NCBI GenBank assembly: GCA_903824575.1
Contig: CAIJXJ010000224.1
Span: 1 to 64,000 of the forward strand
Reading direction: 5' to 3'
Length of the DNA stretch: 64,000 nucleotides
Origin: an uncultured Methylobacillus sp.
GTDB lineage: Bacteria; Pseudomonadota; Gammaproteobacteria; Burkholderiales; Methylophilaceae
The position numbers and the translations under genes are program-made. This document shows, one piece after another, positions 3,501 through 31,355 of this stretch (positions are counted from its first letter, which is position 1; the number at the start of each line of letters is the position of its first letter). Under the pieces are notes generated by a model. The model was not told the origin of the DNA, made no database searches, and saw only the letters and a program-made list of their open reading frames with translations.

Positions 3501-3606
3501 GGCTCTCTCCTCAAACAAGTGATTTATCTTATTTTTCAAGTGCATATTTTTCAAGCCTTCAACCGCATTGGGCAGTTAAAAATCAGACAAGTTCAGTCAG
3601 TCCCGA

Positions 3607-7483: not shown

Positions 7484-7763
7484 GCCCCTTAACTCTTATG
7501 AAACAGAGCCTCAAGCGTTATTGCTGATAGACTAGGCACGCCGTTGCAATCAATAAACTAAAAGCTGAGAGGAATAAAAATGCAGCAGAGGTCGTCGGGC
7601 GGCATCTGATTCTGAGAAATACCCATGCCAAAATAGCCCATCAGCAAGCTGATAGATGCGACACCGGAAAAAATTGGACTTCTTTCTTTAAAACCCTAGC
7701 GGTCAGCGACCTTTAACCGCCAATAACTAACATTCTGAATATGTATAACTTGAAGTGACGCCA

Positions 7764-9269: not shown

Positions 9270-9342
9270 CTAAGGATTATTGTGAACTGAGTGAAATGCG
9301 GATAGTTTTCCACCCTTAATATATCGACTTCCGGTCCTATAA

Positions 9343-11442: not shown

Positions 11443-11486
11443 ACGGGTTATTCAGCAACGAAGGTGTCGTTCAAGCATCTGTAACT

Positions 11487-12956: not shown

Positions 12957-12995
12957 CCTTTCCCTACTGGCATTAGTCTTGTTAGTATGTTTGGT

Positions 12996-14579
12996 TCATC
13001 TAAAAACCGCTGGATCAATATCAGGAAAAATCTGATCAATTATCTCGAGCGCTTGCAGGCGACGCTCATCAATAATACCGCTTATGCATTCTTCAAGGTA
13101 GAAGAAGCGTGCCAAATGATCCCGAGTACTACGCATGGCATAATCCGTGGCCGTTTGGGTTTTCATTATGAATGCCCAATCAGAAGCCTGAGCAAGCAGT
13201 AACGAACGCCCGGCTTGCTGCAAAGCACGAAAAAGCAAGCTTCCGGGCTTGGCTGTAGCATGCTTTCGCGCCATCTCTGACATTCTCCTCGCTGCCTCGT
13301 GCAATTCAGGGTAAATCCAGTCGTTGCCAGGGTTGAGCCAGAATGCATTGTAACCACCATCCCCCCAACTTGACGCCGAAGGCGTCGCCGCTTGCACTGT
13401 CTGGTTGCTGGAAAGATATGCCGAAGGAGTTGTTAACGCTGCTGCTTCATTATCTTCCGCCATGCGACGCACCACGGCTTCAAGCCATTGCGGTCCTTCG
13501 AACCACCAATGACCGAACAGTTCTGCATCATATGGTGAGACAATCAACGGGGCAGGCCCCCGGCGCTCTATATTACCGGAAATCTGCTGCCTGATGCGGG
13601 ATACGAAATCACTTGCATGCGCCGCCACACGTGTCGCAGCAGTATCGGGCTCATAGGGTAGCTTGTGGTCTGTCTTGCCTGTGATTCTGAAGTATTTGAA
13701 CCCCGTCAGGATTCTGGTATGTCCATCCAGAATATACGGTTTGATATAGTCAAAATCCAAGTCAAAACCGATGTCCCGATAAAAATCACGGTAAAAGTAA
13801 TCGCCCGGGTAGCCTTCGTCTCGACTCCAGACCCGACGCGAAGACTCCGGGTCACGACCAAACGCCACCAGGCCATTAGGACATCCTAGCGGGGCTGACA
13901 ATCCATAATAAGGCCGAGGCGTTGCATTCAGGATGGCATGCGAATCGACAAAAAAGTAACCAAAGCCGGCCTCTTCAAGAAAGCCTTCCAACCCTGGAAA
14001 ATAACTGCATTCCGGAAGCCATACCCCTTTAGCAGGGACCCCCACTAACGATTGAAAGGTTCTGGATCCAACCAGCAGTTGTGCGCGAACGGCCGATGGC
14101 TCTGCCTTCAGCAATGAAAGGTAACCATGGGTAGCCGATGAAGTGATCAGTTCCAAGATGCCATCTTGTTGAAGCTGGGCAAATGCAGCGACTAAGTTAC
14201 GTTGATAGCGGTGTTCGAAAACCTCGAAAGTCTCTTCCAGCTTTTCTTGATAGAGTCGGGCAAGACTAGAAAAAACAGGATCAGATCTTGTCCGGCGCAC
14301 TTCTTTGGCAGCCAGATGGCGCATCTTATCCAGGTGCGCGAGATACCGTTCCTGAAGAAAAGGGTCGAGCAACATCGTCAGCAGGGGTGGTGACAGTGAC
14401 ACTGTCATGCACTCTTTGAACCCGCTATCTCTTAACCGCTCAAGCACCAAAATAAGCGGTATGTAGGTTTCGGTAATCGCTTCGAACAGCCAGTTCTCTT
14501 CGAAAAAACTCTCGTACTCGGGATGACGAATATAGGGTAGATGTGCGTGTAGCACGAGGCACTGATAGCCTTTGGACAT
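12996..14579 (-). CDS. GH57 1,4-alpha-glucan branching enzyme
   Basis: A 527-residue GH57 branching enzyme of the archaeal/Thermus type, which makes alpha-1,6 branches with a fold unrelated to GlgB. The five GH57 motifs are recognisable: HAHLPYIRHPE at the start, a helical segment with SATHGYLSLL, the nucleophile Glu190 in GVWLPECSYFPG, the acid/base Asp351 in YDAELFGHWWFEG, and WGDGGYNAFWLNPGNDWIY. The C-terminal DUF1957-type helical region follows. A strong AAGGAG lies nine bases before the ATG, and the DUF4912 gene ends only six bases upstream, so the two are translated from one message. Its presence beside a GH13 glgB gives this locus two unrelated branching activities. Confidence 0.92.
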   Translation of the reverse strand: MSKGYQCLVLHAHLPYIRHPEYESFFEENWLFEAITETYIPLILVLERLRDSGFKECMTVSLSPPLLTMLLDPFLQERYLAHLDKMRHLAAKEVRRTRSDPVFSSLARLYQEKLEETFEVFEHRYQRNLVAAFAQLQQDGILELITSSATHGYLSLLKAEPSAVRAQLLVGSRTFQSLVGVPAKGVWLPECSYFPGLEGFLEEAGFGYFFVDSHAILNATPRPYYGLSAPLGCPNGLVAFGRDPESSRRVWSRDEGYPGDYFYRDFYRDIGFDLDFDYIKPYILDGHTRILTGFKYFRITGKTDHKLPYEPDTAATRVAAHASDFVSRIRQQISGNIERRGPAPLIVSPYDAELFGHWWFEGPQWLEAVVRRMAEDNEAAALTTPSAYLSSNQTVQAATPSASSWGDGGYNAFWLNPGNDWIYPELHEAARRMSEMARKHATAKPGSLLFRALQQAGRSLLLAQASDWAFIMKTQTATDYAMRSTRDHLARFFYLEECISGIIDERRLQALEIIDQIFPDIDPAVFR

Positions 14580-14585
14580 CAGTGA

Positions 14586-15842
14586 CTACTCCTTGATCTT
14601 TCTGCTGCTTACGCGATACATAAACTCTAACAGATCCGAATCTCGCTCCAGAAGCTGCTTTATGCAGAATGTGCCATCTGGCTCGACGTGGACTTTCTCG
14701 CCAAAGAGCAGCAGATGGGTGTCAGGTGGGCACTTCCCCTCAATCAGCAGATTCACTTCGATTTTGTAAGCGTCATCTGCGATCGAGGAAGATGAATCGG
14801 AATTACCCAAATACATTTCAAGCGCAACGAAACGATGGCCACGACTGCCTTCACGAATTTCGCTGTATCCTGGCTCGTCGCGATATTCTGCCGAAACATT
14901 GTCTGTTGCCGCTTTACGCGGATGCAACCCTTCATCTGACAGACTTGTGATGGGTATTGCCGACGGATGGACATCAAACTGAATACCTGCAGGAGCGACC
15001 ATTCCAGCCGGCGGCACTCCCAAGAAAGGAAGTTGGGTACCCGCCAAGAATTTTTCTCTCGACTTGCTGGTTAAAGTTCGGAATTTTTCTAATTCACGAT
15101 GGCCGAGCAGAGGAAAATCAGGATGCTCTTCTACATGTTCAGCCTCTGTTTCTTCCAACTCAGGCAATGCCAACTCATCAGGTGAGAGGATGAAGTTGCT
15201 ATGATCGATCCACGGGAACTCGCCCCCGGACGATAACCGCTGCGGAAATAGATTTCTTAAAAGATCATTATTGGACGCTCGGGGAATAATTCTGGCTGCC
15301 GGTTTTGGCATCGCTGGCGCATGTACATTAACCAGATAAAAATCCAAGTCTGCCGATTGATAAGCGCGAGGGGTGGAAATTTGATTTGAGGTTGCCAATG
15401 ACTCAAATGAACCGTCATCTGCTCTCAGCCCGATCTCGGCCGAATAATGCCTTCCATCAAGCCAGAGGTTGACATACCAATTGTGACTGTCTTCCGTGAC
15501 TTCAATATCAAACCGATCATGCACGCCATTTTGATCCTGCCTGGATGAAACGTCGTAAAAACGGAGCACCAATCTCGAACTCAATCCTTTGGCTTTCAGT
15601 CTGGTACGGCGTTTAGCCAAATCTGATGCCTGGATATGCCAATAAGCGTGAACATTCCAGGGGTCTATTTCCATCAGCACCAGGCGGTTAGATGCGGGGC
15701 GAGGGAATTCTCTGAGCGATATTTCCTCTGAAATTTGTCTCAATTCCTTCTCTGTGAATGGCTCAGAAATGCGCTTGCCCCGGCTTTTCTTCGGGACGCC
15801 TTGAGTACTATCCCTAAGTAGGGATAAACCTTGTTGTTTCAC
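14586..15842 (-). CDS. DUF4912 domain protein
   Basis: A 418-residue protein of unknown function. Residues about 45-150 match DUF4912: LVLMEIDPWNVHAYWHI, then LVLRFYDVSS and WYVNLWLDGRHYSAEIGL, a beta-rich pattern like carbohydrate-binding or immunoglobulin-like modules. The middle (about 180-330) is low in recognisable motifs. A second beta segment near the C-terminus (IEVNLLIEGKCPPDTHLLLF) resembles the first. DUF4912 proteins are often encoded next to GH57 branching enzymes, as here, with six bases between the two genes. A glucan-binding or scaffold role is therefore a fair inference, not a demonstrated one. Translation starts at a GTG with AGGA seven bases ahead. No signal peptide is seen, so it should be cytoplasmic like its neighbours. 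Confidence 0.8.
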   Translation of the reverse strand: MKQQGLSLLRDSTQGVPKKSRGKRISEPFTEKELRQISEEISLREFPRPASNRLVLMEIDPWNVHAYWHIQASDLAKRRTRLKAKGLSSRLVLRFYDVSSRQDQNGVHDRFDIEVTEDSHNWYVNLWLDGRHYSAEIGLRADDGSFESLATSNQISTPRAYQSADLDFYLVNVHAPAMPKPAARIIPRASNNDLLRNLFPQRLSSGGEFPWIDHSNFILSPDELALPELEETEAEHVEEHPDFPLLGHRELEKFRTLTSKSREKFLAGTQLPFLGVPPAGMVAPAGIQFDVHPSAIPITSLSDEGLHPRKAATDNVSAEYRDEPGYSEIREGSRGHRFVALEMYLGNSDSSSSIADDAYKIEVNLLIEGKCPPDTHLLLFGEKVHVEPDGTFCIKQLLERDSDLLEFMYRVSSRKIKE

Positions 15843-15953
15843 TTTTTTCCTGACGTTTTTTTTGCATTTTTGGCAAGGGTGATTCTGGCTTAATCACGAA
15901 CAAAAAAGGCCATTAGCATGAAATTAGTAAGCTTCGAGCTCATGCCAATAACC

Positions 15954-17339
15954 CTACTTTTTTGGAATTCTGTCTTTTGCAACAGTATTTTTCGCAGTTT
16001 GTTTTGAACTACTGGTTTTAGCCGGGGTCGTCTTTAAATCGGAATCGGAAGAAACTGCGCGAGCCTGATCCATGGTCTGTTTTTCTTTGGTTTTAGCTTG
16101 GACAGATTGAGGTACTTTCTTATTTGCCAAAGGTGCACTTTTTCTTGAGGGAGCAGCTGCGGCTTTTGTTGCATCCACCATTGGCGTTTTTGCTGATTCA
16201 TCTAACGATTTTGGAGCGATCAACTGTTCAGCCTGCTTTAACAAATCCATGACCTGAGTGATCCTTGATCCTTCCCCAAGCAAAAGTCCACTTTCCTCCG
16301 CCCGTAGCAGCAGAGTTCTTGCCTCAGTCAGGCTGGCTTTTCCAGACACGACTTCTGTTCCGGGCAAGCGTTTAACCCTGGCCCAATACATCGCTGCAAC
16401 CTCTGAGAGTTTCTTGTTTACACCCGGATTACCAGGAAATGTCTGCGAAGAGATTAATTCCGGCTTCAACAAGGCCTCCGTCTGGGCAGAGTAGCTTTCC
16501 AGATACTCAGTAATCGACACCGGTTGTATGGGAAATGCCCCTAATTCGCAGAACTCCATGTAAGGCGAGAAGAATGCCCCAAAAAACCCTTGCTCTTCAA
16601 AGGTACGGAACCATTCCCCATTCTCTCCATCCGACCAAGTTGTGAGAAGGTCAGGGGTAGAATTAGGTAAAGCAAGCATAACGCCATTTCGAACTTCATC
16701 GGCAAACCAAGGGGCTTCGAGTCCGTATTGCTGTGATTGCGAAAATCCTTCGTCTATTGGAACGACAGTAATGCTGACACCCTGATGGGAAAGCTTGAAA
16801 GGCCGGTAAGGATCGGCCCCACTACCATCCGGTAATTTAAGCATCTGAGCCGGTAATAGTAGGTATTCGTAACCCACCTCGACCAAGGCAGGAATCATTT
16901 CCAGACTAAAAAAATAGGAAGGGGGCAAGTACCCCTTTAAAACACGTCCAAATGTTCCGGATATGAGCTCACGTTCAAGGCGCAACTGCTCTTCCCAATC
17001 TTGCTGCGGAATGAATGGTAATGGTGCATGCCTGTATCCAGTACCGACAAACTCCACATTGGGGGCACTGCGCAGACTCTCCACTATAGAAGGGATATCT
17101 ACCAGTTCACGGCAGGCATTGACCAGCTTTGGGTCCTGCAGTTGTTCAAGCAGAACACACGAGAAAGCCACATGAATACGCGCAACCCCCGCATACTTGT
17201 GTGCAAAGCGGCCGATCCGTTCATAGCAAAGCAGGATGCGTCTGAGTTCCTCCGGGTTGTCCCGAAGGAGCACTTGAAGATTGTCAAGAGGCTGATACAG
17301 GTGTAGCCCGAGAGCATGCATGACAGGATTCATTGGCAC
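15954..17339 (-). CDS. GH57-family protein, probable catalytically inactive homologue
   Basis: A 461-residue GH57 homologue closely related to the third GH57 protein of this locus. Side-by-side reading shows two changed catalytic motifs. The first motif is LHLYQPLDNL (Tyr15), where the relative has LNLHQPAGNL (His14). The nucleophile motif is GYLPPSYFFS (Ser141), where the relative has GFWPPEMGFS (Glu141). The SDGENGEWF segment, equivalent to TDGDNGGWF, is kept. Loss of the nucleophile suggests a non-hydrolytic role such as glucan binding or partner regulation. Residues about 370-461 form a Lys/Ala/Ser/Thr-rich tail that looks disordered. Start is a GTG with AAAGG seven bases ahead; an ATG two codons later is possible. 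It lies between the DUF4912 gene and glgB in one minus-strand run. Confidence 0.85.
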   Translation of the reverse strand: MPMNPVMHALGLHLYQPLDNLQVLLRDNPEELRRILLCYERIGRFAHKYAGVARIHVAFSCVLLEQLQDPKLVNACRELVDIPSIVESLRSAPNVEFVGTGYRHAPLPFIPQQDWEEQLRLERELISGTFGRVLKGYLPPSYFFSLEMIPALVEVGYEYLLLPAQMLKLPDGSGADPYRPFKLSHQGVSITVVPIDEGFSQSQQYGLEAPWFADEVRNGVMLALPNSTPDLLTTWSDGENGEWFRTFEEQGFFGAFFSPYMEFCELGAFPIQPVSITEYLESYSAQTEALLKPELISSQTFPGNPGVNKKLSEVAAMYWARVKRLPGTEVVSGKASLTEARTLLLRAEESGLLLGEGSRITQVMDLLKQAEQLIAPKSLDESAKTPMVDATKAAAAPSRKSAPLANKKVPQSVQAKTKEKQTMDQARAVSSDSDLKTTPAKTSSSKQTAKNTVAKDRIPKK

Positions 17340-17403: not shown

Positions 17404-19626
17404 TTAATTTGCTTTTAATTTTTTAGATCGAGCTGGATTAGCCTGCTTAACTGGTTCAAGTCCTATGACGACAGCAGCTAATGGGGGTAGCGTTATTTCC
17501 AGAGAATAAGCACGGTTCATCCAAGGCTTCTCTTCCGCAACTATAGGCTGGGATCCATTATGAAGCCCACTCCCTCCATATTGCAACATGTCGCTGTTGA
17601 TCAGTTCCCGGTAGGTGCCGGATTGTGGAACTCCGATGCGAAAATTTTGACGCGGCACCGGCGTGAAGTTGAGCGCGACGACCACCGCTTCACCTTCATC
17701 ACCCTTGCGCAGAAAGACCAGAATGGATTTTTCCGCGTCATTGCAATCAATCCAGTCGAAACCTTGGTGATCGAATTCGTTGCGATGTAGCGCCGGGTTG
17801 CCGGTGTAGAGATGATTGAGGTCCTTCACAAGAGCCTGCAGCCCCTTGTGTAGTGGGTATTCCAATACATACCAGTCCAGAATCGCGGCACTGTTCCATT
17901 CTGTTCCCTGACCAAATTCGGTGCCCATGAACAGCAGCTTCTTTCCAGGATGCACATACTGATAAACATACAAAGCACGCAGGTTCGCATGACGCTGCCA
18001 CTCGTCCCCAGGCAATTTATTGAGCATTGAGTGCTTGCCGTGGACAACTTCGTCATGAGAAAAGGGCAACATGAAGTTTTCGCTGAAAGCGTACAACATG
18101 CTGAAGGTCAGCATGTCGTGATGGTACTTGCGGTGTATAGGCTCGTAAGCCATGTATTCCAGAGTGTCGTTCATCCACCCCATGTTCCACTTCAAATCGA
18201 ACCCCAGGCCGCCGTCATAGGTAGGACGACTGACTTTTGGGTACGACGTGGACTCTTCCGCCAGCATGAGAACACCCGGGCACTGGTCATGCACGGCAAC
18301 GTTGAGTTCCTTGATGAAGTCGATTGCCAACAGATTTTCCCGTCCGCCGTACTGGTTGGGAATCCACTCCCCTTCCTTGCGGGAATAGTCGAGGTACAGC
18401 ATTGAAGCTACGGCATCAACGCGCAGCCCGTCGATGTGCATGTCCTCCAACCAGAATATGGCGGATGACAGCAGGAAGTTCTTCACCTCATTGCGACCGA
18501 AGTTGAAAATCAGGGTCGACCAGTCCATGTGCTCGCCGAGCCTCGGGTCGGCATGCTCATACAAAGGGGTGCCGTCAAAGCGTGCAAGGCCGTGTGCATC
18601 CTTGGGAAAATGGGCAGGCACCCAGTCAAGGAGCACGCCGACGTTGTTCTGGTGCAGATAATCGACCAGATACCTGAAATCGTCGGGACTGCCGAAACGA
18701 CTCGTTGGTGCGAAATAACCAGTCGCCTGATAGCCCCAGGACAAGTCGTAGGGGTGCTCTGTAATCGGCATGAGTTCTACATGCGTAAATCCCATGAACT
18801 TCACATAATCCAAGAGGCGATGGGCAGCTTCAGGGTAGCTGAGAAATTCACCTTCGCTGCCACGCTGCCAGGAGCCTAAATGCACCTCATAAACCGTCAT
18901 GGGCGCATGCTGCCAGTCCCATTTGCGGCGACTTTCCATCCACTTTCCGTCACCCCAGGAATAATTGGTCTGACCAGCGATAATAGAACCCGTATTGGGG
19001 CGCAGTTCGTACTGTTTTGCGTAGGGGTCAGCCTTCAGTTGAATTGACCCACTTTCCCGGCTGCGTATCTCATACTTGTAGATATGCCCGGGTTCAAGGT
19101 CGGGAATGAATAGCTCCCAGACACCACTGCCGCCACGCACCCGCATTTGATGTCGACGTCCATCCCAGTGGTTGAAGTCGCCGACAACGCTGACCCGTTC
19201 CGCATTGGGCGCCCACACAGCAAACAACACCCCTCCGATGCCATCGATATCGACTTCCATTGAACCCAGGAAATTATAGGCATGACGATGTCGCCCCTCC
19301 CCAAACAAGTGAAGATCGAGATCACCGATCTGCGGTAGGAACGTGTAAGGGTCACGGGAATAGTGCTCACGATGCCCGTCGCTCCATATCAGGCTGTAAT
19401 GTGCGGGCAGCATGGACCCATCACCATGCCACTCAAAAAAATCGCTATCCGGCACACGATCCATCACTAAACCACCTTCAGCAATGGTGACCTTGGTGGC
19501 AAAAGGAATGAATGCACGCACTACGACACCACTGTTTTCTATGTGACGCCCCAGGACGCTGAATGGATCATGATGGCGAGCTTCGCTGACTCGTAAAAGC
19601 TCAGTGTTAAGGTGATTTTTTTTCAT
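17404..19626 (-). CDS. glgB: 1,4-alpha-glucan branching enzyme GlgB (GH13)
   Basis: GlgB transfers alpha-1,4 chains to form alpha-1,6 branches in glycogen. The 740-residue product has an N-terminal GlgB domain (about 15-100, DPFSVLGRH), a CBM48 domain (about 115-220, [18 protein letters not shown]) and the GH13 barrel. Catalytic residues sit in [20 protein letters not shown] and [12 protein letters not shown]. The C-terminal beta domain closes the protein. The ATG at 19626 has a good GAGG site five bases ahead; an in-frame TTG five codons upstream is less likely. A lysine-rich extension (ARSKKLKAN) ends the protein. Base composition here is closer to the rest of the genome than in malQ-glgX. 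Confidence 0.96.
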
Positions 19627-19791
19627 GTTTCCTCTATTCAATTTAAAGTGGAAAGCAGAAATCGTAGCTTGCCTGCATTCTCGATTTCATTGCCGGGGCC
19701 ACCAATATTCGTTAGGCCGTCACATCCTTTACTTGGAGCGTTCTTGACATACTCCTGACTGAAAGTGCAGCTTTAAAAACTCGTAGCAACT

Positions 19792-20982
19792 CTACTCCGT
19801 CTTAAGTTTTTCGCAAGCTTCATTGAGATACTGCCAGCACTTATCCAGATCGGCATGCGCGCGACCAACCCATTCTTCCCCCCAAAAGAAATTACAACTG
19901 GTTTCGGCACGCAGTAAATGCCACACCGCCTGCTCTAGCAGAAAATGTACGTGGGGATCATGGCAGTGACCTTCACCCGCAGTCCAGCGAGCCGCATGGA
20001 CTGCGGCACTCGTTTCCTGCAATCTTGCCAAGCCATCCCTCTGCGATTGCGAACCGGTCCATTGCACAAAGCCCTGGCCATGATGCCAACCAGTATTCCA
20101 GGCTCCTGTTGCAACACGCACCTCTCCGTGCACGCCATACTTGTCAAGGTAATCATCAATAAAGGTCGGCTTCATGATGCCGCTCTTTGTTCTGGATGAC
20201 TCAAGTATCTTGATGTATGCGCCCCAGAAGTTGGATTGCGCCTCAGGGTTTCTGAACCAGCCTCCATTATCTCCATCTGTTGCAGTTGTAATCAATGGGG
20301 GGAAATCGCAGCCTTTTGTCCTTGCCTGTGCTTCGCTCATGAACCATTCCACGTCAAAACCCGACTCCTGCGCATCAGAAAACTCCCGGTCGCGAACCAC
20401 CACGATGATTTCAGCACCCTCATGGCGCGCAATATGGGGACGGTAGCGTAGTTCTTGCCAAGACATTGGGGTCACGGCTTCAATGTTCTTACTATCCACC
20501 AGCACATAGCGGTATCCCAAGCGAGCCAGCAACGGGATCAATTCCATGCTGAACCCCATTTCCGGTGGCCAGAAACCTTGGAAATTCCTCCGCCAGAACA
20601 GATGACTGGCAATACCGAGCCAGCGCCGCAAATGTTCCTCCCGATCAGCTTCTGGAATGAGTGGGAGCACAGGATGGTAATAGCCGGTCCCCAAAATACG
20701 GAAAATATTGAGGTTATGAAAATGCCAGAGCAGGCTCCCGCAATCCACTGTCCCATAAACACGCGACTGAAAAGCGGGGTCAGACAGTGTCTCTAGCAGC
20801 GTGCCCGATAAGGACAGGTGAACCCTTGCGACATCTTCGTAGCCCCATAACGAGCGAGGAATCCTGTCCATCGCTAACAATATTTCATTGGGCTCCCAAG
20901 ATCCCTGGTCAAGCAGTTCTTGAAGATTTCCTGCAGGCTGGTGAAGATTCAAGACCAGTGCATGATGAATGTGATATTTCAT
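19792..20982 (-). CDS. GH57-family alpha-glucan hydrolase or transferase
   Basis: A 396-residue GH57 protein with catalytic residues in place: His14 in LNLHQPAGNL, the predicted nucleophile Glu141 in GFWPPEMGFS and an aspartate in TTATDGDNGGWF. It has no signal peptide and should act in the cytoplasm on alpha-glucan. The exact activity (amylase, 4-alpha-glucanotransferase or other) cannot be told from sequence. The start at 20982 is supported by GAGGA nine bases ahead, and the conserved fold begins right there; the frame opens 20 codons earlier without a ribosome site. It is the first gene of the minus-strand glucan unit and is divergent from the GWD gene across a 420-bp control region. Confidence 0.85.
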   Translation of the reverse strand: MKYHIHHALVLNLHQPAGNLQELLDQGSWEPNEILLAMDRIPRSLWGYEDVARVHLSLSGTLLETLSDPAFQSRVYGTVDCGSLLWHFHNLNIFRILGTGYYHPVLPLIPEADREEHLRRWLGIASHLFWRRNFQGFWPPEMGFSMELIPLLARLGYRYVLVDSKNIEAVTPMSWQELRYRPHIARHEGAEIIVVVRDREFSDAQESGFDVEWFMSEAQARTKGCDFPPLITTATDGDNGGWFRNPEAQSNFWGAYIKILESSRTKSGIMKPTFIDDYLDKYGVHGEVRVATGAWNTGWHHGQGFVQWTGSQSQRDGLARLQETSAAVHAARWTAGEGHCHDPHVHFLLEQAVWHLLRAETSCNFFWGEEWVGRAHADLDKCWQYLNEACEKLKTE

Positions 20983-21402
20983 TGTGGAGTCCTCGTTCAA
21001 GATTAATTTCTTATCAAGACTATCGTGTCGATATTCTGGCACTAAATTGTTTTGACTGTGCGATTAACCAGCGGGAAGGGTAATTGCATGTCATAATAAT
21101 ATCTCAATTTTATAATGATCTAGGGTTAAGCTACTGCCGCCAAGCCCCTTGCACAAGCGTCATGTTAACGGTTTTTCTACCGAAGACGTCTTCAGGTTGG
21201 CTGGAAGTCCCTGTCAGCCATGCGTTAGTAGTGGTCAACCTGCCCAACGAAGATGCTTTTTCGAGTACCCGTTAAGCGCATAAGCAGTATGTTAAGATTC
21301 GTCGGCATTCGTCCCTTTTGAGACTGCTTTCTGCATAGCAATTTTCTGACGATCCTCACCGAGAACTATTTACCACGTGACAATCCAACTAGAAGCGCAT
21401 TC
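20983..21402. other. Divergent intergenic region between GH57 and GWD genes
   Basis: These 420 bases separate the minus-strand glycogen-building unit from the plus-strand dikinase unit. They contain a good sigma-70-like promoter facing the dikinase genes. I see no gene and no clear operator repeat. Because both transcripts start here, it is the natural place for joint regulation of glucan synthesis and phosphorylation. Confidence 0.6.
21088..21116 (+). promoter_or_regulatory. Sigma-70-type promoter candidate for the dikinase genes
   Basis: A perfect TATAAT -10 box lies 17 bases after ATGTCA, which matches the -35 consensus at four of six positions. It points toward the GWD gene and leaves a leader of about 280 bases. 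Confidence 0.5.
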
Positions 21403-24400
21403 ATGACGGCAATACAAGAAAGTTTTTCTTTCGTTGCGGGAGACATTCCGCTCAAGATCTTCTTGACTCAAAAAGGTACGTGCCAAAATTTGAGACTGGA
21501 ACTCGCAACGGATGAAGCTTGTCGCCTCCACTGGGGGCTCGTTCGTCGCGGGGACTGGCATTGCCCACCAGAAACCTGCTGGCCTACGGGGACCGTGGCC
21601 TTCAATGAAAATGCTGTTGAGAGTCCTTTTAACAACGCAGAAGCGCGAATACCTTTCGTCGAAATCGATCTCGATTTGACACAGAATTGGCGCAGCCTGG
21701 CATTTGTCCTGCATTTCCCGGAAAAAAAGCGTTGGGTCAAAAACGGACAGAGTGATTTTCTGATTCCTTTATCGCGCCTGAACGGCCAGCCTTCAGCAAA
21801 AGAGGTGCTGACGGCCCACACCGGCGAAGGTGCATGGCAACGAGGGGAAATCGATCTCGGCCAAGGAGAGTTTCTGGCCACTGCGGTATTGGAAAACGAC
21901 GATCAAATCCACGCGCTACTGGCTTGTGATCTCGCATCTCCGCTGCTTCTTCATTGGGGAATCGCCGAACGATTCCAGGGCGAATGGCATCAGCCATCGG
22001 AGCCGATGTGGCCTGCAGGATCCGAAGCATTTGACGCAAAGGCCGTTCGCACCCCGTTTGGGGAGCGGGACGGCGTGCGGTGGCTTGAGATGCGATTTCC
22101 CAAACCCAAAGGCAAGGCGCATCTTCGTGGAATGGATTTCATCCTTTACCAACCAGTGGAAAATCTCTGGATCAAGGATCACGGGCGGGACATGCACCTG
22201 ACCTTGCTCAACCCAGGCGAACTTGATGGACAACCGTTGGCCTCAGAAACACAGCAAAGACTCACCGATGCAATTGTAGGTGCGGAATTGGGGAAAAGCT
22301 CCTGGACACTGATGCACCGGTTCAACCTCTGCCACGACCTGCTCGCTGGCGTACAGGAAGACCCCAAGGCCTTGGCTCTGCTGTTTATCTGGTTGCGTTT
22401 TTCCGCCATTCGCCAACTGGACTGGCAACGACACTTCAACACCAAGCCACGTGAGCTTGCCCATGCACAGACCCGCCTGACGGAGCGCCTTGCTGAAATT
22501 TATGCAAACCATCCGCCAAGCCGCCTCTGGGTGCGGCTGATGTTGAGCACCGTCGGGCAGGGTGGGAATCGTGGTCAGCAGGTTCGGGACGAGATCCTGG
22601 ACATCATGCACCATCACCACATCAAGGAGGTAGGGGGGCACTTCATGGAGGAGTGGCACCAGAAGCTTCACAACAACACGACCCCGGATGATGTCGCCAT
22701 CTGTCAGGCTTATCTCGCTTTTCTTTACAGTGACGGCAATCTCGATACCTTTTACAAGGTGCTAGGCGAGGCCGGCGTTACACGCGAACGTCTATGCAGC
22801 TTCGACCGCCCTATCAAGACTGATCCGGACTTTCACGGCGATAAAAAGCACGGACTGATCCACGCTTTTGAAAACTATTTGCGTATCCTCAAGGCCGTGC
22901 ATTCTGGGACAGACCTTGAGACCGCACTGACGGAGGCACGCGACACATTGGGGCAGGAACTTGGTCGAAAACTCGACGCCTTGTTCCAGCATGGTGTAGC
23001 ACCGCTGGATCGGGTGCGGATCATTGTCGATGTCCGCAAAGATCTTCACGACAGAATCGCAACTCTGTCAAACCTCGAATCGTTGCGGAAGCTCTTGTAT
23101 CTGGATCTGTCGCTTGAGGAAACCATGCGCGGCACGATCGAACAACTCAAGCTGGATTCCCTCTCGGAACGGGACATGCTGACGTTTACAGCACACGCTC
23201 TGGAAGGCTTGCGGCTTTCGGCCTTTTCGTCTGAGCTTGACCTGTGTGCGAAGCAATTCTACCTGCTGTTGGAGTCACAGAATAACAGCGCTGACTGGGC
23301 TTTGCGGGCGAAGAGCGTGACCGACCGTTTCAGCCGCGTGGTAGGCGAGTGGACAAACGCTTTGCTCACCCAATTGCAGCCTAATGCCGAGATTCTCGGC
23401 GGGGCATTTCATGCTGCGGAATGGACGATCGAATTGTTCGGCGAAGAAGTGATCAGGGGGGGCTCCGCCTTTACCGTGTCACGCTTGATGCGTCATCTCG
23501 ATCCCATGCTGCGTGAGCGTGCCGGTATCGGCGGCTGGCAGGTTCTGAGCCCGGCACAGGCCACCGGCAGAGTGCAGGTCGTCGGAAGCCTGATGTCCGT
23601 CCAAGGAGATGTTTTTAATGAGCCTACGGTGTTGATCGTAGACAAACTGTCAGGCGAAGAAGAATTTCCCGAGGGTGTCGTGGCCGTTCTCACATCGGAT
23701 ACCCCGGATCTAGTTGCGCATGTGGCGGTACGCGCCCGCAACGAGCGGGTGCTGCTCGCCACCTGCTTCGACGAAGAAACGTTCACAGACCTGAAGACTC
23801 ATGCAGGTCAAATCCTGATCTTCAGTGTAACGGGCGGTGCGGATATTCAATATGTTGAAGGCAAAGCTGCAGCCTTGGCAAAGGAGACAACCTCGGCGCA
23901 CGGCACATTGACGATCCGCCGCCGCAACTTTTCGCTCTGGGCGGTAGGTGCTGAGGCCTTTAGCCGGGAGATCGTCGGCGGCAAGTCCAACAACCTGATT
24001 GCCTTACGTGGCCAACTGTCTGATTGGATCAAGTTTCCGCGCTCCATGGCGCTGCCGTTCGGGGTTTTAGAAAAAACACTGGCTGCACCTGAAAATGCTT
24101 CCGTGGCGCTCAAACTCGACACCTTGTTGGCCGAAGTTACCCAAGATCCTGCCACCTGCCTGCACCAGATGCGTGAGGCTATTGGCGAACTTCAAGCGCC
24201 CGAGCCGCTGCGTCTGGAGATGCTGGAAATATGGAAAGAAACCGGGCTTGCCTCTGTGCCTTGGGACCAAGCCTGGCGAGCGATCACTCGGGTGTGGGCA
24301 TCCAAGTGGAACGACCGGGCCTATTTCTCCCGCACGGCGCGCGGTATTGCCCACGAAGATCTGAATATGGCCACATTGATACAGCAAGTGGTCAAGGCTG

Positions 24401-24879
24401 ACTATGCCTTTGTCATCCATACTGTCAATCCCGTGAGCGGAGATACCAATGAGATTTACGCCGAGTTGGTGCTCGGCATGGGCGAGACGCTGGTCGGCAA
24501 CTATCCGGGGCGAGCGATGAGCTTCGTTGTTAACAAGACTACTGGTAAAGTCACACTGACCGCTTATCCGAGCAAAGGCATCGGCCTGTACGGGAGTGGC
24601 GTCATTTTTCGCTCCGACTCGAATGGGGAGGATTTGGAAGGCTTCGCCGGTGCAGGGCTTTACGACAGCTTCCTCGCAGAAGAACCGGTACCTAGGCTGC
24701 TTGATTATATGGGAGCGCCTCTGTTTGAAGACCGAGACTTCGCCACGAGAATGTTTACCAAGATCGCGCAAATCGGTATTGAGGTCGAGCAGGCCTGCGG
24801 GTCGTCCCAGGATATTGAGGGCGCAGTCCAGGCTGGTGAATATTACGTGGTACAGACCCGACCCCAGGTTGGCTTATGA
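21403..24879 (+). CDS. Alpha-glucan water dikinase, GWD type
   Basis: This protein closely resembles plant GWD, which uses ATP and water to phosphorylate glucosyl residues (C6 in plants) with release of AMP and phosphate. Two CBM45-like starch-binding repeats open it: LHWGLVRRGDW near residue 44 and LHWGIAERFQGEW near residue 184, each followed by a WPxG...PF segment. The conserved GWD core EEWHQKLHNNTTPDDV lies near residue 420. The phosphohistidine is His773 in DLVAHVAVRARN. The nucleotide-binding domain has the GWD order, VWASKWNDRAYFS (about 964) before FRSDSNGEDLEGFAGAG (about 1070), and the protein ends IEGAVQAGEYYVVQTRPQ. The 1158 residues are shorter than plant GWD (about 1400), partly through lack of a transit peptide. 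It starts a three-gene plus-strand unit, 40 bp before the next gene. Family assignment is firm; the acceptor glucan is inferred. Confidence 0.93.
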   Translation: MTAIQESFSFVAGDIPLKIFLTQKGTCQNLRLELATDEACRLHWGLVRRGDWHCPPETCWPTGTVAFNENAVESPFNNAEARIPFVEIDLDLTQNWRSLAFVLHFPEKKRWVKNGQSDFLIPLSRLNGQPSAKEVLTAHTGEGAWQRGEIDLGQGEFLATAVLENDDQIHALLACDLASPLLLHWGIAERFQGEWHQPSEPMWPAGSEAFDAKAVRTPFGERDGVRWLEMRFPKPKGKAHLRGMDFILYQPVENLWIKDHGRDMHLTLLNPGELDGQPLASETQQRLTDAIVGAELGKSSWTLMHRFNLCHDLLAGVQEDPKALALLFIWLRFSAIRQLDWQRHFNTKPRELAHAQTRLTERLAEIYANHPPSRLWVRLMLSTVGQGGNRGQQVRDEILDIMHHHHIKEVGGHFMEEWHQKLHNNTTPDDVAICQAYLAFLYSDGNLDTFYKVLGEAGVTRERLCSFDRPIKTDPDFHGDKKHGLIHAFENYLRILKAVHSGTDLETALTEARDTLGQELGRKLDALFQHGVAPLDRVRIIVDVRKDLHDRIATLSNLESLRKLLYLDLSLEETMRGTIEQLKLDSLSERDMLTFTAHALEGLRLSAFSSELDLCAKQFYLLLESQNNSADWALRAKSVTDRFSRVVGEWTNALLTQLQPNAEILGGAFHAAEWTIELFGEEVIRGGSAFTVSRLMRHLDPMLRERAGIGGWQVLSPAQATGRVQVVGSLMSVQGDVFNEPTVLIVDKLSGEEEFPEGVVAVLTSDTPDLVAHVAVRARNERVLLATCFDEETFTDLKTHAGQILIFSVTGGADIQYVEGKAAALAKETTSAHGTLTIRRRNFSLWAVGAEAFSREIVGGKSNNLIALRGQLSDWIKFPRSMALPFGVLEKTLAAPENASVALKLDTLLAEVTQDPATCLHQMREAIGELQAPEPLRLEMLEIWKETGLASVPWDQAWRAITRVWASKWNDRAYFSRTARGIAHEDLNMATLIQQVVKADYAFVIHTVNPVSGDTNEIYAELVLGMGETLVGNYPGRAMSFVVNKTTGKVTLTAYPSKGIGLYGSGVIFRSDSNGEDLEGFAGAGLYDSFLAEEPVPRLLDYMGAPLFEDRDFATRMFTKIAQIGIEVEQACGSSQDIEGAVQAGEYYVVQTRPQVGL

Positions 24880-24919
24880 ACAGAAGTTTTGCCGCATACG
24901 AAACGTAGAATGAATCAAT

Positions 24920-27900
24920 ATGACCGAACGCATTCGGATCGGTAACCAAACCGCTTTTTCCGCCACAGAGTCCCTGGCCCCACTCGAGTTTGCCATTGCG
25001 CAGGGATTCGACGCCTTTGAGTGGTTTTCCGACAAAAAGTACTACGATGACGGAACCTCCAGAGGGTGGGATTTTTCTGACATGGGGCCTGAAGAGCGTA
25101 CCCGAATCGCCCTCATCGGTAAGGAACGGGACATCCTGTATACGGTGCACGTTCCCTGGCAGGCCAACCCCCTCTATCCGCAAGGTGAGGCCTTGTTGAT
25201 GGAGAGCGTCGACTTTGCGAAGGATATCGGAGCCGATCTGATCAACCTGCATTTGTATCCGGAACATGGTCCGGATGTCTTTTTGAAGCGGTTGGCCCCC
25301 GTCATCACCTATGCGATGGAACGCGGTGTAAGAATCGCGATCGAGAACACGCCTGAAACCTCTCCCAGCGATTTCAGGGAGTTTTTCGTGCACCTTGCGC
25401 AAAGCGAGTTCAAGAATGCGGCCGTAGGCATGTGCTTGGATATCGGGCATGCGAACCTGTATGAGAAAACGCACAACGATTTCATTCGTTTTATCGATGA
25501 ACTCGGATCTCAAGTGCCTATCATCCACGCGCACGTCCACGAAAACTACGGTGATGCTGACAGGCACATGCCTTTGTTCACCGGTCCGGCCAGGGAGAAC
25601 GACAGCGGCATTCGTGCTTTTACCGAACGCTTGGAGCATCGAAACTTTAAAGGCGTGATGGTCCTGGAGGTCTGGCCGCAACCGCCAGAGTTACTTACCC
25701 AAGCCGAGCAACGGCTGCGGGGGATGCTCCACATAAAGACGGATCAGCGCCAAGGCAAAGATAAAAAAAAAATACAGCAATCTCCTGATGAACGGGATCG
25801 ACCCAAACGAAAAACACGCAACCCGGTCGCGCCCCCCCCTCGGCCCGAGCGCGATGGCTTAAGCGCAGGCCCGACCACGGAACTGGGTGCCCTGCCTGAC
25901 TACGCCACGAAAGAGGATGAATTTACCCGCACCGTAGTCCTGGCTAATCAGCAATACCACAGTTGGCGAGAACGTCTTGGTTGGGTTCATGCAACCTTGG
26001 CCCACGCTGATTTCGATCCAGATCCGGAACACTTGGCCACGCTTGCTGTTTACCTCCGTTTTCTGGGTACTGGCGAGGTTGCTTGCGAAGAAGATGGCAG
26101 GCACTTTCGGCCCAATCACCATGCAAGTGCCGCCGCCGACATCGAAAATGTGCTCGAAAGGATTGCGAATGCGGAGAATGCCTGGATTCTTCGGAAAATC
26201 TATCCCTGGCTGCCCTCGTTCGCCGATGACTTCTGCCGGAGGGAACCGCTCACGCGTATTCGTGACATCGCGCATCGCAACGACATCCCGCACGACCTCA
26301 AGAACGAGATCAAACACCGATTGCAGAACAAGCTACATCGCTGCGCCGGTCCGGAGGACTTTCAGACATCCGAAGAAATTCTCAAACGTATCACCGCCCA
26401 GGGGGCAAACTATTCCGCTGAGTTTGTGCGGCAATTTGAAATTTTTCACCAGGAACTTGGCGAGTTCTTCAACGCATCTACGCTGGATGTGCGCTTGCGT
26501 GACATCCAATCGGGTCTTGATGCCAAAGAGGCTACGTTAGTAGAACGCTTGCTGACACTCAAGGCAAAACAGCAACGTAGCAATCAGGAGTTGCTCGCTC
26601 TGCTGGACGCGTTGACCGCCATACGTAACTTCATTGCGTTGCGACTGAAGTCAACGGAAGGGGCGCGACGACAACACCTGCGCAGCACCGATATCGCGCT
26701 GGAGGACTATGCTTTTGCGTTACTGAGTGAAGCTGCGAATCGTTTTGAGGCCTCAGCCACAACCGGAAGCTGGGATACCATGCTAAATCTACTGCAGCTG
26801 ACGCTGACGAACACAAGGCTGAGCATGATAGGACCCGAAGAGGCCGCAGTACTTGAGTCTGAACTGGCGGCCTGGACAGCGACACTCGCTGACAGCGCAT
26901 TCAATTCCGATCGTCTGGCCTTGTTGTGGTTCAAATCGACACTGGAGCGGGCTGAGCGTCTGGCTGAAGACTACACTGACCAGGTGCTTTCCTTGTTTCC
27001 GGGGCGTGTCACCAGCCTGGGCAAAGCGCTGAAGGTGCCCCAAAACTCCATCGCGTTGTTCTGTGAAGGGGACATCCGGGGCAATATCGTCTTTCAGCTT
27101 TCGAAACTGGTCGGCATACTGCGAAAAGGTGTCCGAAATGCCCTGTCACTTTCACCTTGGGAAACTGTTGTGCCGGCCGAGGCATATGGCCTGCTGGTTG
27201 AGGCCGACACCCTGTCGAGCCTGGAGGGAGGTTCCCCCGACCATCCGGTGATCGCTCTGATAAAAAAGGCTGCGGGTGACGAGGAAATCCCGACCGGCGT
27301 GCGTGGCATCCTTCTGGGGCATGCCATTCCACAACTTTCCCATCTCGGCGTTCGAGCCCGGCAGGCACGTATCGCCTTCGCTGCGACCGATGACCGGCAT
27401 CTGCTGGAAACCTGTAAGGATTTTCTGGGGAAAAACATGCATCTGCGTGTGGGCGCGGACGAGATGTCTTTGCAGGTCTCACAACGGTCTGGAGTTGCGG
27501 CTGATGAAGCACCTGCGCCTCGCAAAGTGGAACTGCCCGAAACTCGGCTCAGCCACGTATTGAGCTGGGTCCCAGCAGGAGCTGCAACGGATGAGACATG
27601 TGGTGCCAAGTCGGCGAGCGCTGGCCGCTTGCTTGCAATCGCTGAGGAATCAAACGGGTTGTTTGCTGCCCCAAGAGCGCTCGCCCTGCCTTTCGGTATC
27701 ATGGAGCACTGCCTGAAACTAATGCCTGGTTTAGAAAGTGAATATCGCACTCTGCAAAATCGCCTGTCTGAAACGTCTGATTCGCAGTTGGATGTGGTGC
27801 TGAAGGGTTTGCAAACCTTGATTGAGCGCATCGAAGTTCCTGGCGAGCTTGTGGCAGCCATCGCTGATGCCTTCGGCCAGGATACCAACCTCGCCGTACG

Positions 27901-28522
27901 TTCCAGTGCCAATGGCGAAGACTTGGAACAACTCTCTGGCGCAGGGCTCTACGATTCAGTGATCGGTGTCCGGCCCGAGGAATGCGCCGCCGCGATCCGC
28001 AGGGTCTGGGCCTCTATCTGGACGCGGCGCGCCACCTTGAGTCGAATTCAAGCAGGTATCCCGCATGAACATATCCACATGGCGGTGCTCGTTCAGGCCA
28101 TGATAGACCCCGCGATTTCCTTCGTCATGCACACCCTGGATCCTTCAACCAAAGACCCAGAAACTGCCTATGTAGAGCTTGCTTTCGGCCTTGGCGAAAC
28201 CCTGGCATCAGCTTCTCAGCCTGGCACGCCTTACCGGCTCAGATGTCATCGCACGTCAGGAGCAACGACTTTACTCAACTGCGCCAGCTTCAGCTACGCG
28301 CTAAGGCCTGGAGCCCACGGCGAGTCATTTAAGGAGCGCCTCAACTACAGCCTGAGCCCGCTAGCAGCCGATGCAGGGGCGCTCCAAGACTTGGGGGCGC
28401 GGTTCGCCAGTATTGCTGGGTTGCTGCAGCAGCGGCTCGGCTGCCCTCAGGACGTAGAAGGCATACTGACAAGCGATGACTGCCTCTACCTCGTGCAAAC
28501 AAGACCACAGCAAGGCATTTGA
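24920..28522 (+). CDS. TIM-barrel / phosphoglucan water dikinase (PWD) fusion
   Basis: A 1200-residue fusion. Residues 1-270 form a xylose-isomerase-like (AP endonuclease 2 family) TIM barrel with likely metal ligands in IAIENTPET, CLDIGHAN, HAHVHENYGDADRH and VLEVWPQP. A charged Lys/Pro/Arg linker (about 270-320) follows. The rest is a PWD: LTRIRDIAHRNDIPHDLKNE and NKLHRCAGPEDF near 444-475, and the phosphohistidine His808 in QLSHLGVRARQ. The nucleotide-binding part has the PWD/PPDK order, RSSANGEDLEQLSGAGLYDS (about 993) before VWASIWTRRATLSR (about 1028). Plant PWD phosphorylates C3 of glucan already phosphorylated by GWD and is targeted by a CBM20, which is absent here. The TIM barrel takes its place. 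The ribosome site before the ATG is weak. The next gene starts two bases after the stop. Confidence 0.92.
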   Translation: MTERIRIGNQTAFSATESLAPLEFAIAQGFDAFEWFSDKKYYDDGTSRGWDFSDMGPEERTRIALIGKERDILYTVHVPWQANPLYPQGEALLMESVDFAKDIGADLINLHLYPEHGPDVFLKRLAPVITYAMERGVRIAIENTPETSPSDFREFFVHLAQSEFKNAAVGMCLDIGHANLYEKTHNDFIRFIDELGSQVPIIHAHVHENYGDADRHMPLFTGPARENDSGIRAFTERLEHRNFKGVMVLEVWPQPPELLTQAEQRLRGMLHIKTDQRQGKDKKKIQQSPDERDRPKRKTRNPVAPPPRPERDGLSAGPTTELGALPDYATKEDEFTRTVVLANQQYHSWRERLGWVHATLAHADFDPDPEHLATLAVYLRFLGTGEVACEEDGRHFRPNHHASAAADIENVLERIANAENAWILRKIYPWLPSFADDFCRREPLTRIRDIAHRNDIPHDLKNEIKHRLQNKLHRCAGPEDFQTSEEILKRITAQGANYSAEFVRQFEIFHQELGEFFNASTLDVRLRDIQSGLDAKEATLVERLLTLKAKQQRSNQELLALLDALTAIRNFIALRLKSTEGARRQHLRSTDIALEDYAFALLSEAANRFEASATTGSWDTMLNLLQLTLTNTRLSMIGPEEAAVLESELAAWTATLADSAFNSDRLALLWFKSTLERAERLAEDYTDQVLSLFPGRVTSLGKALKVPQNSIALFCEGDIRGNIVFQLSKLVGILRKGVRNALSLSPWETVVPAEAYGLLVEADTLSSLEGGSPDHPVIALIKKAAGDEEIPTGVRGILLGHAIPQLSHLGVRARQARIAFAATDDRHLLETCKDFLGKNMHLRVGADEMSLQVSQRSGVAADEAPAPRKVELPETRLSHVLSWVPAGAATDETCGAKSASAGRLLAIAEESNGLFAAPRALALPFGIMEHCLKLMPGLESEYRTLQNRLSETSDSQLDVVLKGLQTLIERIEVPGELVAAIADAFGQDTNLAVRSSANGEDLEQLSGAGLYDSVIGVRPEECAAAIRRVWASIWTRRATLSRIQAGIPHEHIHMAVLVQAMIDPAISFVMHTLDPSTKDPETAYVELAFGLGETLASASQPGTPYRLRCHRTSGATTLLNCASFSYALRPGAHGESFKERLNYSLSPLAADAGALQDLGARFASIAGLLQQRLGCPQDVEGILTSDDCLYLVQTRPQQGI

Positions 28523-28523
28523 C

Positions 28524-29549
28524 ATGGCTCCCAAACTCCTATCGATCATGCACGTCCAGCCGCCCATTACGGGAGATATAGCCCTACTCCAGTTGGCACG
28601 CTTGCGCCTGCAAGAGGCTGGTCTTGGCGGAGAACTTTATCCGGGCAACCCCCAGCATCTGGATCTGCTGCTTCCATTTCGGACTGACCAATCATGTACC
28701 GCGCATTTGCCGCGCGACATCAACCTGCTGGATGAAAATGGACGGGACGCAGTGATTGCCTTTGCGCGGCGAGCTGCAGGCAAGTTCTACGGCTTGGTAG
28801 TCCATGATCATGGAAGTTTTGAAGGCAGGCTGGCGGAGGTTGTGGACGCCTTTCGTAGCCTTGACCATCGTCTGATTGAGATGAAGAATCCACCACTCGT
28901 ATTCGTGGAATATGCAGTCGGCCTCGAACTGGATTATTTCGCCAGCCTGTTCGAAAAGACCCGTGATCTCGCACACATGTGTGCCTGCATTGACATTGGT
29001 CATATGGGCATTTTCACTTGCAGACAACGCTTTGCCGCGCGGTTCAATGGCCGCAATGTTTGTAAACTACGTCCTGACACAGCTGATCTGCCCGAATGTA
29101 TCGAGGCTGTCCAGCAAGCCGTTCAAGAGACCACGCCCATCGTAGTTAATCTGGTTAGCCGATTGTCCTCGCTTGGCAAACCCATCCACTTTCACCTGCA
29201 CGACGGCCATCCTCTTTCCACCCTCAGCCAGTTCGGAGTGTCTGACCATTTGAGCTTCCTGCAACAGATTCATATTCCTTTCCCTTATGAGGGCCGACAA
29301 TTACTCGATGGGATTTATGGGCCAAGCGGATTGAGCAGGGTCATACGGGCAGCCTTGTCAGAATTGCCGGCGGAAAAACTCTCATTCATGCTGGAAATGC
29401 ATCCCCAGCCAGGGCGTACACCGCTCGACCGGCATGGCCACCTTTTCGAGCACTGGAAAGATAAAACGAATGCAGAGCAGATGAACTATTGGCTAGAAAA
29501 GCTAATCGAGAACAGCACATTGCTTCGCAACATCTGCCATCCAAGCTGA
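28524..29549 (+). CDS. Stand-alone xylose-isomerase-like TIM-barrel protein
   Basis: A 341-residue TIM-barrel protein distantly similar to the barrel fused to PWD. Matching blocks are CIDIGHMG (versus CLDIGHAN), HFHLHDGHP (versus HAHVHENYGD) and MLEMHPQP (versus VLEVWPQP), with an upstream glutamate in VFVEYAVG. These give the Glu-Asp-His-His-Glu type metal set expected of the sugar isomerase/epimerase and AP endonuclease superfamily. Its substrate is unknown. The ATG lies one base after the PWD stop codon, so expression is coupled to the dikinases, which points to a role in glucan phosphate metabolism. The in-frame codons inside the end of the PWD gene are not needed. There is no signal peptide. 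Confidence 0.82.
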   Translation: MAPKLLSIMHVQPPITGDIALLQLARLRLQEAGLGGELYPGNPQHLDLLLPFRTDQSCTAHLPRDINLLDENGRDAVIAFARRAAGKFYGLVVHDHGSFEGRLAEVVDAFRSLDHRLIEMKNPPLVFVEYAVGLELDYFASLFEKTRDLAHMCACIDIGHMGIFTCRQRFAARFNGRNVCKLRPDTADLPECIEAVQQAVQETTPIVVNLVSRLSSLGKPIHFHLHDGHPLSTLSQFGVSDHLSFLQQIHIPFPYEGRQLLDGIYGPSGLSRVIRAALSELPAEKLSFMLEMHPQPGRTPLDRHGHLFEHWKDKTNAEQMNYWLEKLIENSTLLRNICHPS

Positions 29550-31299: not shown

Positions 31300-31355
31300 A
31301 TCGAATTCCTTGATACACGACGTACTCAATGACGCCACATACTAATTCAAAATAG

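Follow-up and report, generated by a model that had tools for sequence, protein, structure and literature searches.

A recurrent bacterial array of glucan dikinase and TIM-barrel genes encodes candidate glucan phosphatases

We analyzed positions 1 to 64,000 of contig CAIJXJ010000224.1 (assembly GCA_903824575.1, forward strand) from an uncultured Methylobacillus sp., a stretch of 64,000 nucleotides referred to here as the window. Our subject is an array of three genes that encode two glucan dikinase-like proteins and two TIM barrels, one barrel fused to the second dikinase and the other standing alone. The genes, named GWD, TIM-PWD and TIM3, are co-directional on the + strand, and the gaps between them are 40 bp and then 1 bp. 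A preliminary description of the window had reported GWD, TIM-PWD and a stand-alone TIM barrel in this order and with this spacing, and both the coordinates of the open reading frames (ORFs) and the domain matches bear it out:

21403..24879, + strand: GWD-type alpha-glucan water dikinase of 1158 aa, with two N-terminal Ig_N_CWD1 stretches, a core, a phosphohistidine domain and a C-terminal ATP-binding domain
24920..28522, + strand: TIM-PWD fusion (P0002) of 1200 aa, with an N-terminal PF01261 TIM barrel followed by a PWD-type core, a phosphohistidine domain and an ATP-binding domain
28524..29549, + strand: TIM3, a stand-alone diverged TIM barrel of 341 aa, with invariant residues H61, H94, E129, D157, H160, H224, D241, H242 and E291

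The first protein exceeds the Pfam cut-offs for Ig_N_CWD1 (two stretches, 2.7e-38), GWD1_pHisD (3.2e-37) and PPDK_N (1.7e-25). Its phosphohistidine domain is encoded at 23533-23862 and contains His773, and its ATP-binding domain follows the GWD motif order. Among solved structures, chain 9ha9_A of a plant GWD matches it at E 6.4e-84. The C-terminal part is 42-44% identical to a part of potato GWD, and His773 aligns with the His of that same part. The window GWD therefore shares the domain set, the catalytic His and the GWD motif order with plant GWD, but it is bacterial, and its gene is arrayed with TIM barrels and a gene of the PWD type. In addition, the first Cys of the plant redox motif CFATC is replaced in the window GWD (LLATC).

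In TIM-PWD, the TIM barrel is encoded at 24989-25708 (AP_endonuc_2, residues 24-263, 8.2e-23), the phosphohistidine domain at 27158-27484 (GWD1_pHisD, residues 747-855, 1.6e-21) and the ATP-binding domain at about 27596-28513 (PPDK_N, residues 893-1198, 9.2e-39). The order of motifs in GWD is WASKW, GETL then RSDSNGEDL, and in the second dikinase RSSANGEDL then WASIW, GETL; plant GWD and PWD, respectively, have these same orders. The second dikinase is 34% identical to a part of Arabidopsis PWD over 446 residues (221 bits), with a lower match to potato GWD (27% over 650 residues, 176 bits). By sequence, and with these plant proteins as yardsticks, we provisionally call it PWD-type. It shares the phosphohistidine and ATP domains and their motif order with plant PWD (EC 2.7.9.5), but carries an N-terminal TIM barrel where plant PWD has CBM20. 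No CBM20 was found in TIM-PWD by Pfam search at E<=0.1, the N-terminus being occupied by PF01261 instead. The N-terminal position of CBM20 in Arabidopsis PWD is described in PMC11986951.

The TIM3 ORF has an alternative in-frame ATG at 28476, from which it would overlap the dikinase gene. In the TIM3 genes of two related loci (L004 and L028), the longest ORF starts only about one residue ahead of the point equivalent to 28524. A promoter and terminator scan gave counts no different from those in shuffled sequences, and a tRNA scan found none.

Scanning a genome collection with the window GWD returned 134 relatives, and the locus counts given here refer to the best 80. Judged by record titles, nine phyla account for 74 of these 80 loci, namely Nitrospirota (n = 31), Planctomycetota (n = 10), Verrucomicrobiota (n = 9), Thermodesulfobacteriota (n = 8), Pseudomonadota (n = 7), Myxococcota (n = 6) and three phyla with one locus each. 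The gene order GWD-TIM-PWD-TIM3 was found again in other phyla. With relatives in the collection and an order that recurs, we rejected the possibilities that the array is unique to this genome or arose from faulty gene calling. A GWD phosphohistidine domain over the cut-off was detected in 1/150 genomes of the window's order and in 1/398 of its phylum, the window's own genome both times. The window GWD groups with Gammaproteobacteria (97% by Shimodaira-Hasegawa-like approximate likelihood ratio test, SH-aLRT) in a quick, unrooted tree with a single, long-branched plant sequence and eight rows without taxonomic group, the window and plant rows among them. The GWD at L080:6089-9568 sits on a very long branch of this tree (1.22) and is perhaps a diverged dikinase.

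A TIM barrel is present in 53/80 GWD loci and, for 18 of the other 27, elsewhere in the genome. The whole-genome search (E<=1e-20) covered 28 loci without a TIM ORF, of which 18 had a TIM elsewhere and ten did not. One of these ten, L021, has the beginning of a TIM at its contig end; in L036, L050 and L083, with no TIM found genome-wide, the contig stops at most 70 bp past GWD. Where at least 850 bp follow GWD (71 loci), TIM lies downstream in 51 and at most 300 bp from GWD in 49. In Nitrospirota (the phylum of L022; 198 genomes), TIM was found in 11/13 GWD-positive and 0/185 GWD-negative genomes (Fisher p 2e-16). Similarly, in the window's phylum (398 genomes) it was found in 1/1 and 0/397, respectively. 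The genome sets behind the GWD and TIM counts were taken as identical (equal size, and the same handles where shown), and G380, with a GWD match below the cut-off, was counted as GWD-negative. Co-occurrence of the dikinases with TIM barrels in other genomes, which the preliminary description had named as a check on its proposal, is thus present, and we are highly confident that these genes form a conserved system of dikinases and TIM barrels that belongs to alpha-glucan metabolism.

The same loci are coupled to further glucan enzymes. In 16/80 loci a GH13 protein (about 430 aa) is encoded directly after TIM or TIM3 or is fused to one of them; L052 and L058, for example, encode a TIM3-GH13 fusion. 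In nine short loci TIM lies outside the GWD contig or stretch. There, GH13 stands beside TIM in L085, L088, L090 and L099, TIM-PWD is found in L089, L091, L092 and L093, and L086 has TIM beside further GWD sequence. The host genome holds no close copy of the GH13 protein, only a GlgE-like protein at 28%.

Two pairings emerged from the gene content of the loci. TIM is fused to PWD in 27 loci and in the window, and in L072 the two are separate ORFs. In 20 loci TIM is complete and stands alone, and the locus contains no PWD, which rules out TIM as a mere part of PWD; a wider count of 25 TIM rows scored as alone also includes L015 and L070, cut by a contig end, and L023, L061 and L072, with a separate PWD ORF. 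TIM3 occurs in 18/80 loci, and PWD is present in 18/18 of those. Where PWD is followed by at least 1000 bp (19 loci), TIM3 is the next gene in 17 (exceptions: L033 and L037), and both TIM3 genomes of the Nitrospirota set have a second phosphohistidine domain. On the quick GWD tree (43 rows), 8 independent pairs are discordant for PWD; TIM3 differs likewise in a mean of 7.3 of them and in the opposite direction in none (median p 0.016). Finally, L043:13449-15518, L046:3509-5593 and L047:12756-15131 encode TIM and the PWD middle region and stop before the phosphohistidine domain, with 821, 910 and 189 bp of contig left, respectively, so TIM also occurs in chains that have no kinase. These three loci are closely related and their truncated form is probably one event.

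The TIM domain scores 81.8 bits against PF01261 (gathering score 31.1) and has a predicted TIM fold with a predicted local distance difference test score (pLDDT) of 94.1. For TIM3, AlphaFold gives a confident TIM barrel (pLDDT 92.5), and the top solved matches of the model are epimerase/isomerase-type TIM barrels (best Z 20.1, 3.0 A over 238 residues). The window TIM3 has no Pfam match at E<=0.1, and the PF01261 gathering score was reached by 0/6 TIM3 proteins scanned (best 19.6 vs 31.1). Against the sequences of solved structures, one search with TIM3 gave two chance-level matches and another none. Its kinship with the AP-endonuclease-2 superfamily is suggested by the predicted fold and by an hhalign probability of 94.2 with TIM.

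In the models of both barrels, the conserved residues sit at or just past the C-terminal strand ends or in the loops that follow. Nine TIM residues are invariant in 52/52 rows (H77, H111, E142, D174, H177, H205, D214, H216 and E250), in an alignment that leaves out L031, whose GWD is identical to that of L032, and the partial TIMs of L015 and L021. They correspond to the nine zinc ligands of E. coli endonuclease IV (Nfo); eight pair by alignment, and E250 falls one column from Nfo E261. Similarly, the nine TIM3 residues listed above are invariant in 18/18 rows. In the alignment with Nfo, H61 and D241 of TIM3 are unpaired with H69 and D229, and H61 pairs with TIM H77 by hhalign.

As a control, we scored 29 of the 66 PF01261 matches found in three GWD genomes, together with 20/52 TIM rows, L116 having been removed as itself a TIM-PWD. 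The H77/H69 column is misplaced in this alignment, which leaves eight informative positions, and even Nfo reaches a score of eight. Only 3/29 controls keep eight ligands, two of them endonuclease IV (TIGR00587 over the cut-off) and the third CbiR-like; 26/29 keep at most six. Because only endonuclease IV and CbiR-like controls match TIM, the nine-ligand constellation marks the phosphoesterase branch, and TIM, by its residues, appears to be a metal phosphoesterase and not an epimerase. A TIM profile search of solved structures at E<=0.01 returned endonuclease IV (5zhz, 3.9e-6; 1qtw, 0.0058) and the uncharacterised proteins MJ1311 and TTHB071, and no epimerases.

Endonuclease IV has the fold and the nine zinc-ligand positions in common with TIM, but the neighbours of TIM are alpha-glucan genes. 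P0002 gave no match to TIGR00587 or PRK01060 at E<=0.01, and the TIM of L022 scored 23.5 vs 129.65 bits for TIGR00587. The sole PF01261 match in the host genome (G000, completeness 99.33%) is TIM-PWD itself, and no endonuclease IV was seen there by this profile search. The nearest NCBIfam model to the TIM part is CbiR (NF041277), at 48.9 bits and below the cut-off of 105. CbiR is presented in PMC7733943 as a metal-inhibitor-sensitive phosphodiesterase of the same superfamily as endonuclease IV. Unlike this cobamide phosphodiesterase, TIM has alpha-glucan genes as its neighbours, cobamide genes not having been searched for.

In plants, GWD phosphorylates glucan at C6 and PWD then acts on C3 of pre-phosphorylated chains, the beta-phosphate of ATP being transferred. 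By homology to these dikinases, GWD and the PWD-type core would pass phosphate from ATP through phosphohistidine to phosphate monoesters on the cell's glycogen-like glucan. The TIM barrels would take the phosphate off again as a new class of phosphatase, and the array would then be a module for phosphorylating and dephosphorylating alpha-glucan in bacteria. Bacteria have been regarded as lacking such a cycle. We lean, with some reserve, toward the TIM barrels being metal-dependent phosphoglucan phosphatases; the phosphatase activity, the substrate and the direction of use we infer from active site and context. The preliminary description had already proposed the barrels as candidates for a removal or processing step. 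Their active-site residues point to phosphoester chemistry, in line with that proposal. To it we add the endonuclease IV-type site, the association of TIM with GWD and of TIM3 with PWD, and the TIM3-GH13 fusion.

According to PMC13011383, all known glucan phosphatases belong to the dual-specificity phosphatase (DSP) family, and SEX4, LSF2 and laforin are described as cysteine DSPs in PMC12892837 and PMC13011383. TIM would share the role of these enzymes, the removal of glucan phosphate, but would be an unrelated, metal-based class. That no phosphatase of the SEX4 or LSF2 kind is visible here had been remarked before, and the lack of a plant- or animal-type phosphatase extends to the host genome: the DSPc domain is absent from the three proteins and has no host match at E<=1e-3, other phosphatase families not having been searched. 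Within that scope, a DSP phosphatase elsewhere in the host as the remover was rejected. Across GWD genomes, DSPc over the cut-off is absent in 15/27. No report of a bacterial GWD or PWD, or of a TIM-barrel glucan phosphatase, was found among the literature matches listed, which were open-licence only and may have missed reports.

Several findings weigh against the phosphatase interpretation. L018, L056, L062, L064, L067 and L082 have room downstream of GWD and no TIM genome-wide, so TIM is not obligatory and some lineages seem to manage without it. L056, L062, L064 and L067 are Nitrospirota from one clade of the GWD tree, L082 is also from Nitrospirota, and TIM may have been lost or replaced in these five; a GH13 gene directly follows GWD in L062, L064 and L082. 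TIM is likewise missing from 2/13 Nitrospirota GWD genomes. TIM3 is found in only 2/5 Nitrospirota genomes with a second phosphohistidine domain (absent in G547, G710 and G730), which also counts against its pairing with PWD. DSPc over the cut-off is present in 12/27 GWD genomes; because the domain also matches in 7/14 control genomes, including E. coli, its presence says little about glucan. At the active site, TIM3 has an adjacent D-H vs the D-x-H of endonuclease IV, and about half of the TIM ligands are found in epimerases too, so the argument rests on the remaining ones. Moreover, the predicted fold alone cannot separate phosphoesterases from epimerases, the best matches to TIM being MJ1311 (Z 26.1), the AP endonuclease AsfvAP (25.1), D-tagatose 3-epimerase (23.1) and E. 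coli endonuclease IV (22.4).

This last point bears on an alternative that we consider unlikely, in which the TIM barrels are sugar or sugar-phosphate isomerases or epimerases acting on small phosphorylated sugars freed from phosphorylated glucan. Such enzymes have the same fold and are among the best structural matches, and most PF01261 controls lack the full endonuclease IV set, which makes isomerase the commoner function in the superfamily. Yet all nine ligand positions are unchanged in every TIM row, the only controls with more than six are endonuclease IV or CbiR-like, and the profile search yielded endonuclease IV and two uncharacterised proteins in place of epimerases.

The chance is small that TIM is not a catalyst but a module that recognizes phosphoglucan and, as a substitute for the plant CBM20, directs PWD to chains already phosphorylated. 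Its N-terminal place is the one held by CBM20 in Arabidopsis PWD (PMC11986951), and the proteins of L043, L046 and L047 combine TIM with the PWD middle region and lack both the phosphohistidine and the ATP domain, but binding should not need all nine metal ligands to be kept, and TIM stands complete in the 20 loci with no PWD. Just as improbable is an action of TIM and TIM3 on another phosphoester of the pathway, such as a glucan phosphodiester or a dikinase by-product: CbiR is a phosphodiesterase and endonuclease IV hydrolyses phosphodiesters (PMC7733943), but the barrels are linked and fused to glucan-acting enzymes and the dikinases are expected to produce monoesters.

If the TIM barrels are phosphoglucan phosphatases, the linkage of TIM with GWD and of TIM3 with PWD makes a split between C6 (TIM) and C3 (TIM3) attractive. 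The fullest form of this interpretation would have a two-kinase, two-phosphatase cycle in about nine phyla, with TIM removing phosphate from C6 and TIM3 from C3 by a metal chemistry that no known glucan phosphatase shares, and plant GWD and PWD derived from such a bacterial system; we regard this whole as doubtful. Whether genes passed from bacteria to plants or the other way cannot be read from the GWD tree, which is unrooted and has a single, long-branched plant sequence. Against a bacterial origin, PMC8703398, on trees that include bacteria, traces the GWD and PWD of red algae to the eukaryotic host. Through the conserved GWD-TIM-PWD-TIM3 array, the question of bacterial glucan dephosphorylation becomes open to direct test. 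The array may also provide a new class of enzymes for editing the phosphate of starch and glycogen, and it bears on the origin of plant starch phosphorylation.

The array lies in the following genomic context:

7755..9269, + strand: 4-alpha-glucanotransferase MalQ (GH77)
9343..11442, + strand: glycogen debranching enzyme GlgX (TIGR02100 cut-off exceeded)
11487..12956, - strand: glycogen/starch synthase GlgA
12996..14579, - strand: GH57 branching enzyme (Glyco_hydro_57 and BE_C)
14586..15842, - strand: DUF4912 protein
15954..17339, - strand: GH57 family protein
17404..19641, - strand: GH13 branching enzyme GlgB
19792..21042, - strand: GH57 family protein, adjoining GWD and divergently transcribed
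29692-31338, convergent to TIM3: tetratricopeptide repeat (TPR) protein with a 2-oxoglutarate-Fe(II) (2OG-Fe(II)) oxygenase domain

The DUF4912 gene lies inside the alpha-glucan cluster, and a DUF4912 relative is found near 8/80 bacterial GWD loci. At window positions 8001-16000, part of the alpha-glucan cluster has a GC fraction of 0.46-0.49, vs 0.53-0.58 across most of the window, and is perhaps an acquired stretch. A SoxY-SoxZ fusion at window positions 2703-3554 suggests that the host is a sulfur oxidiser.

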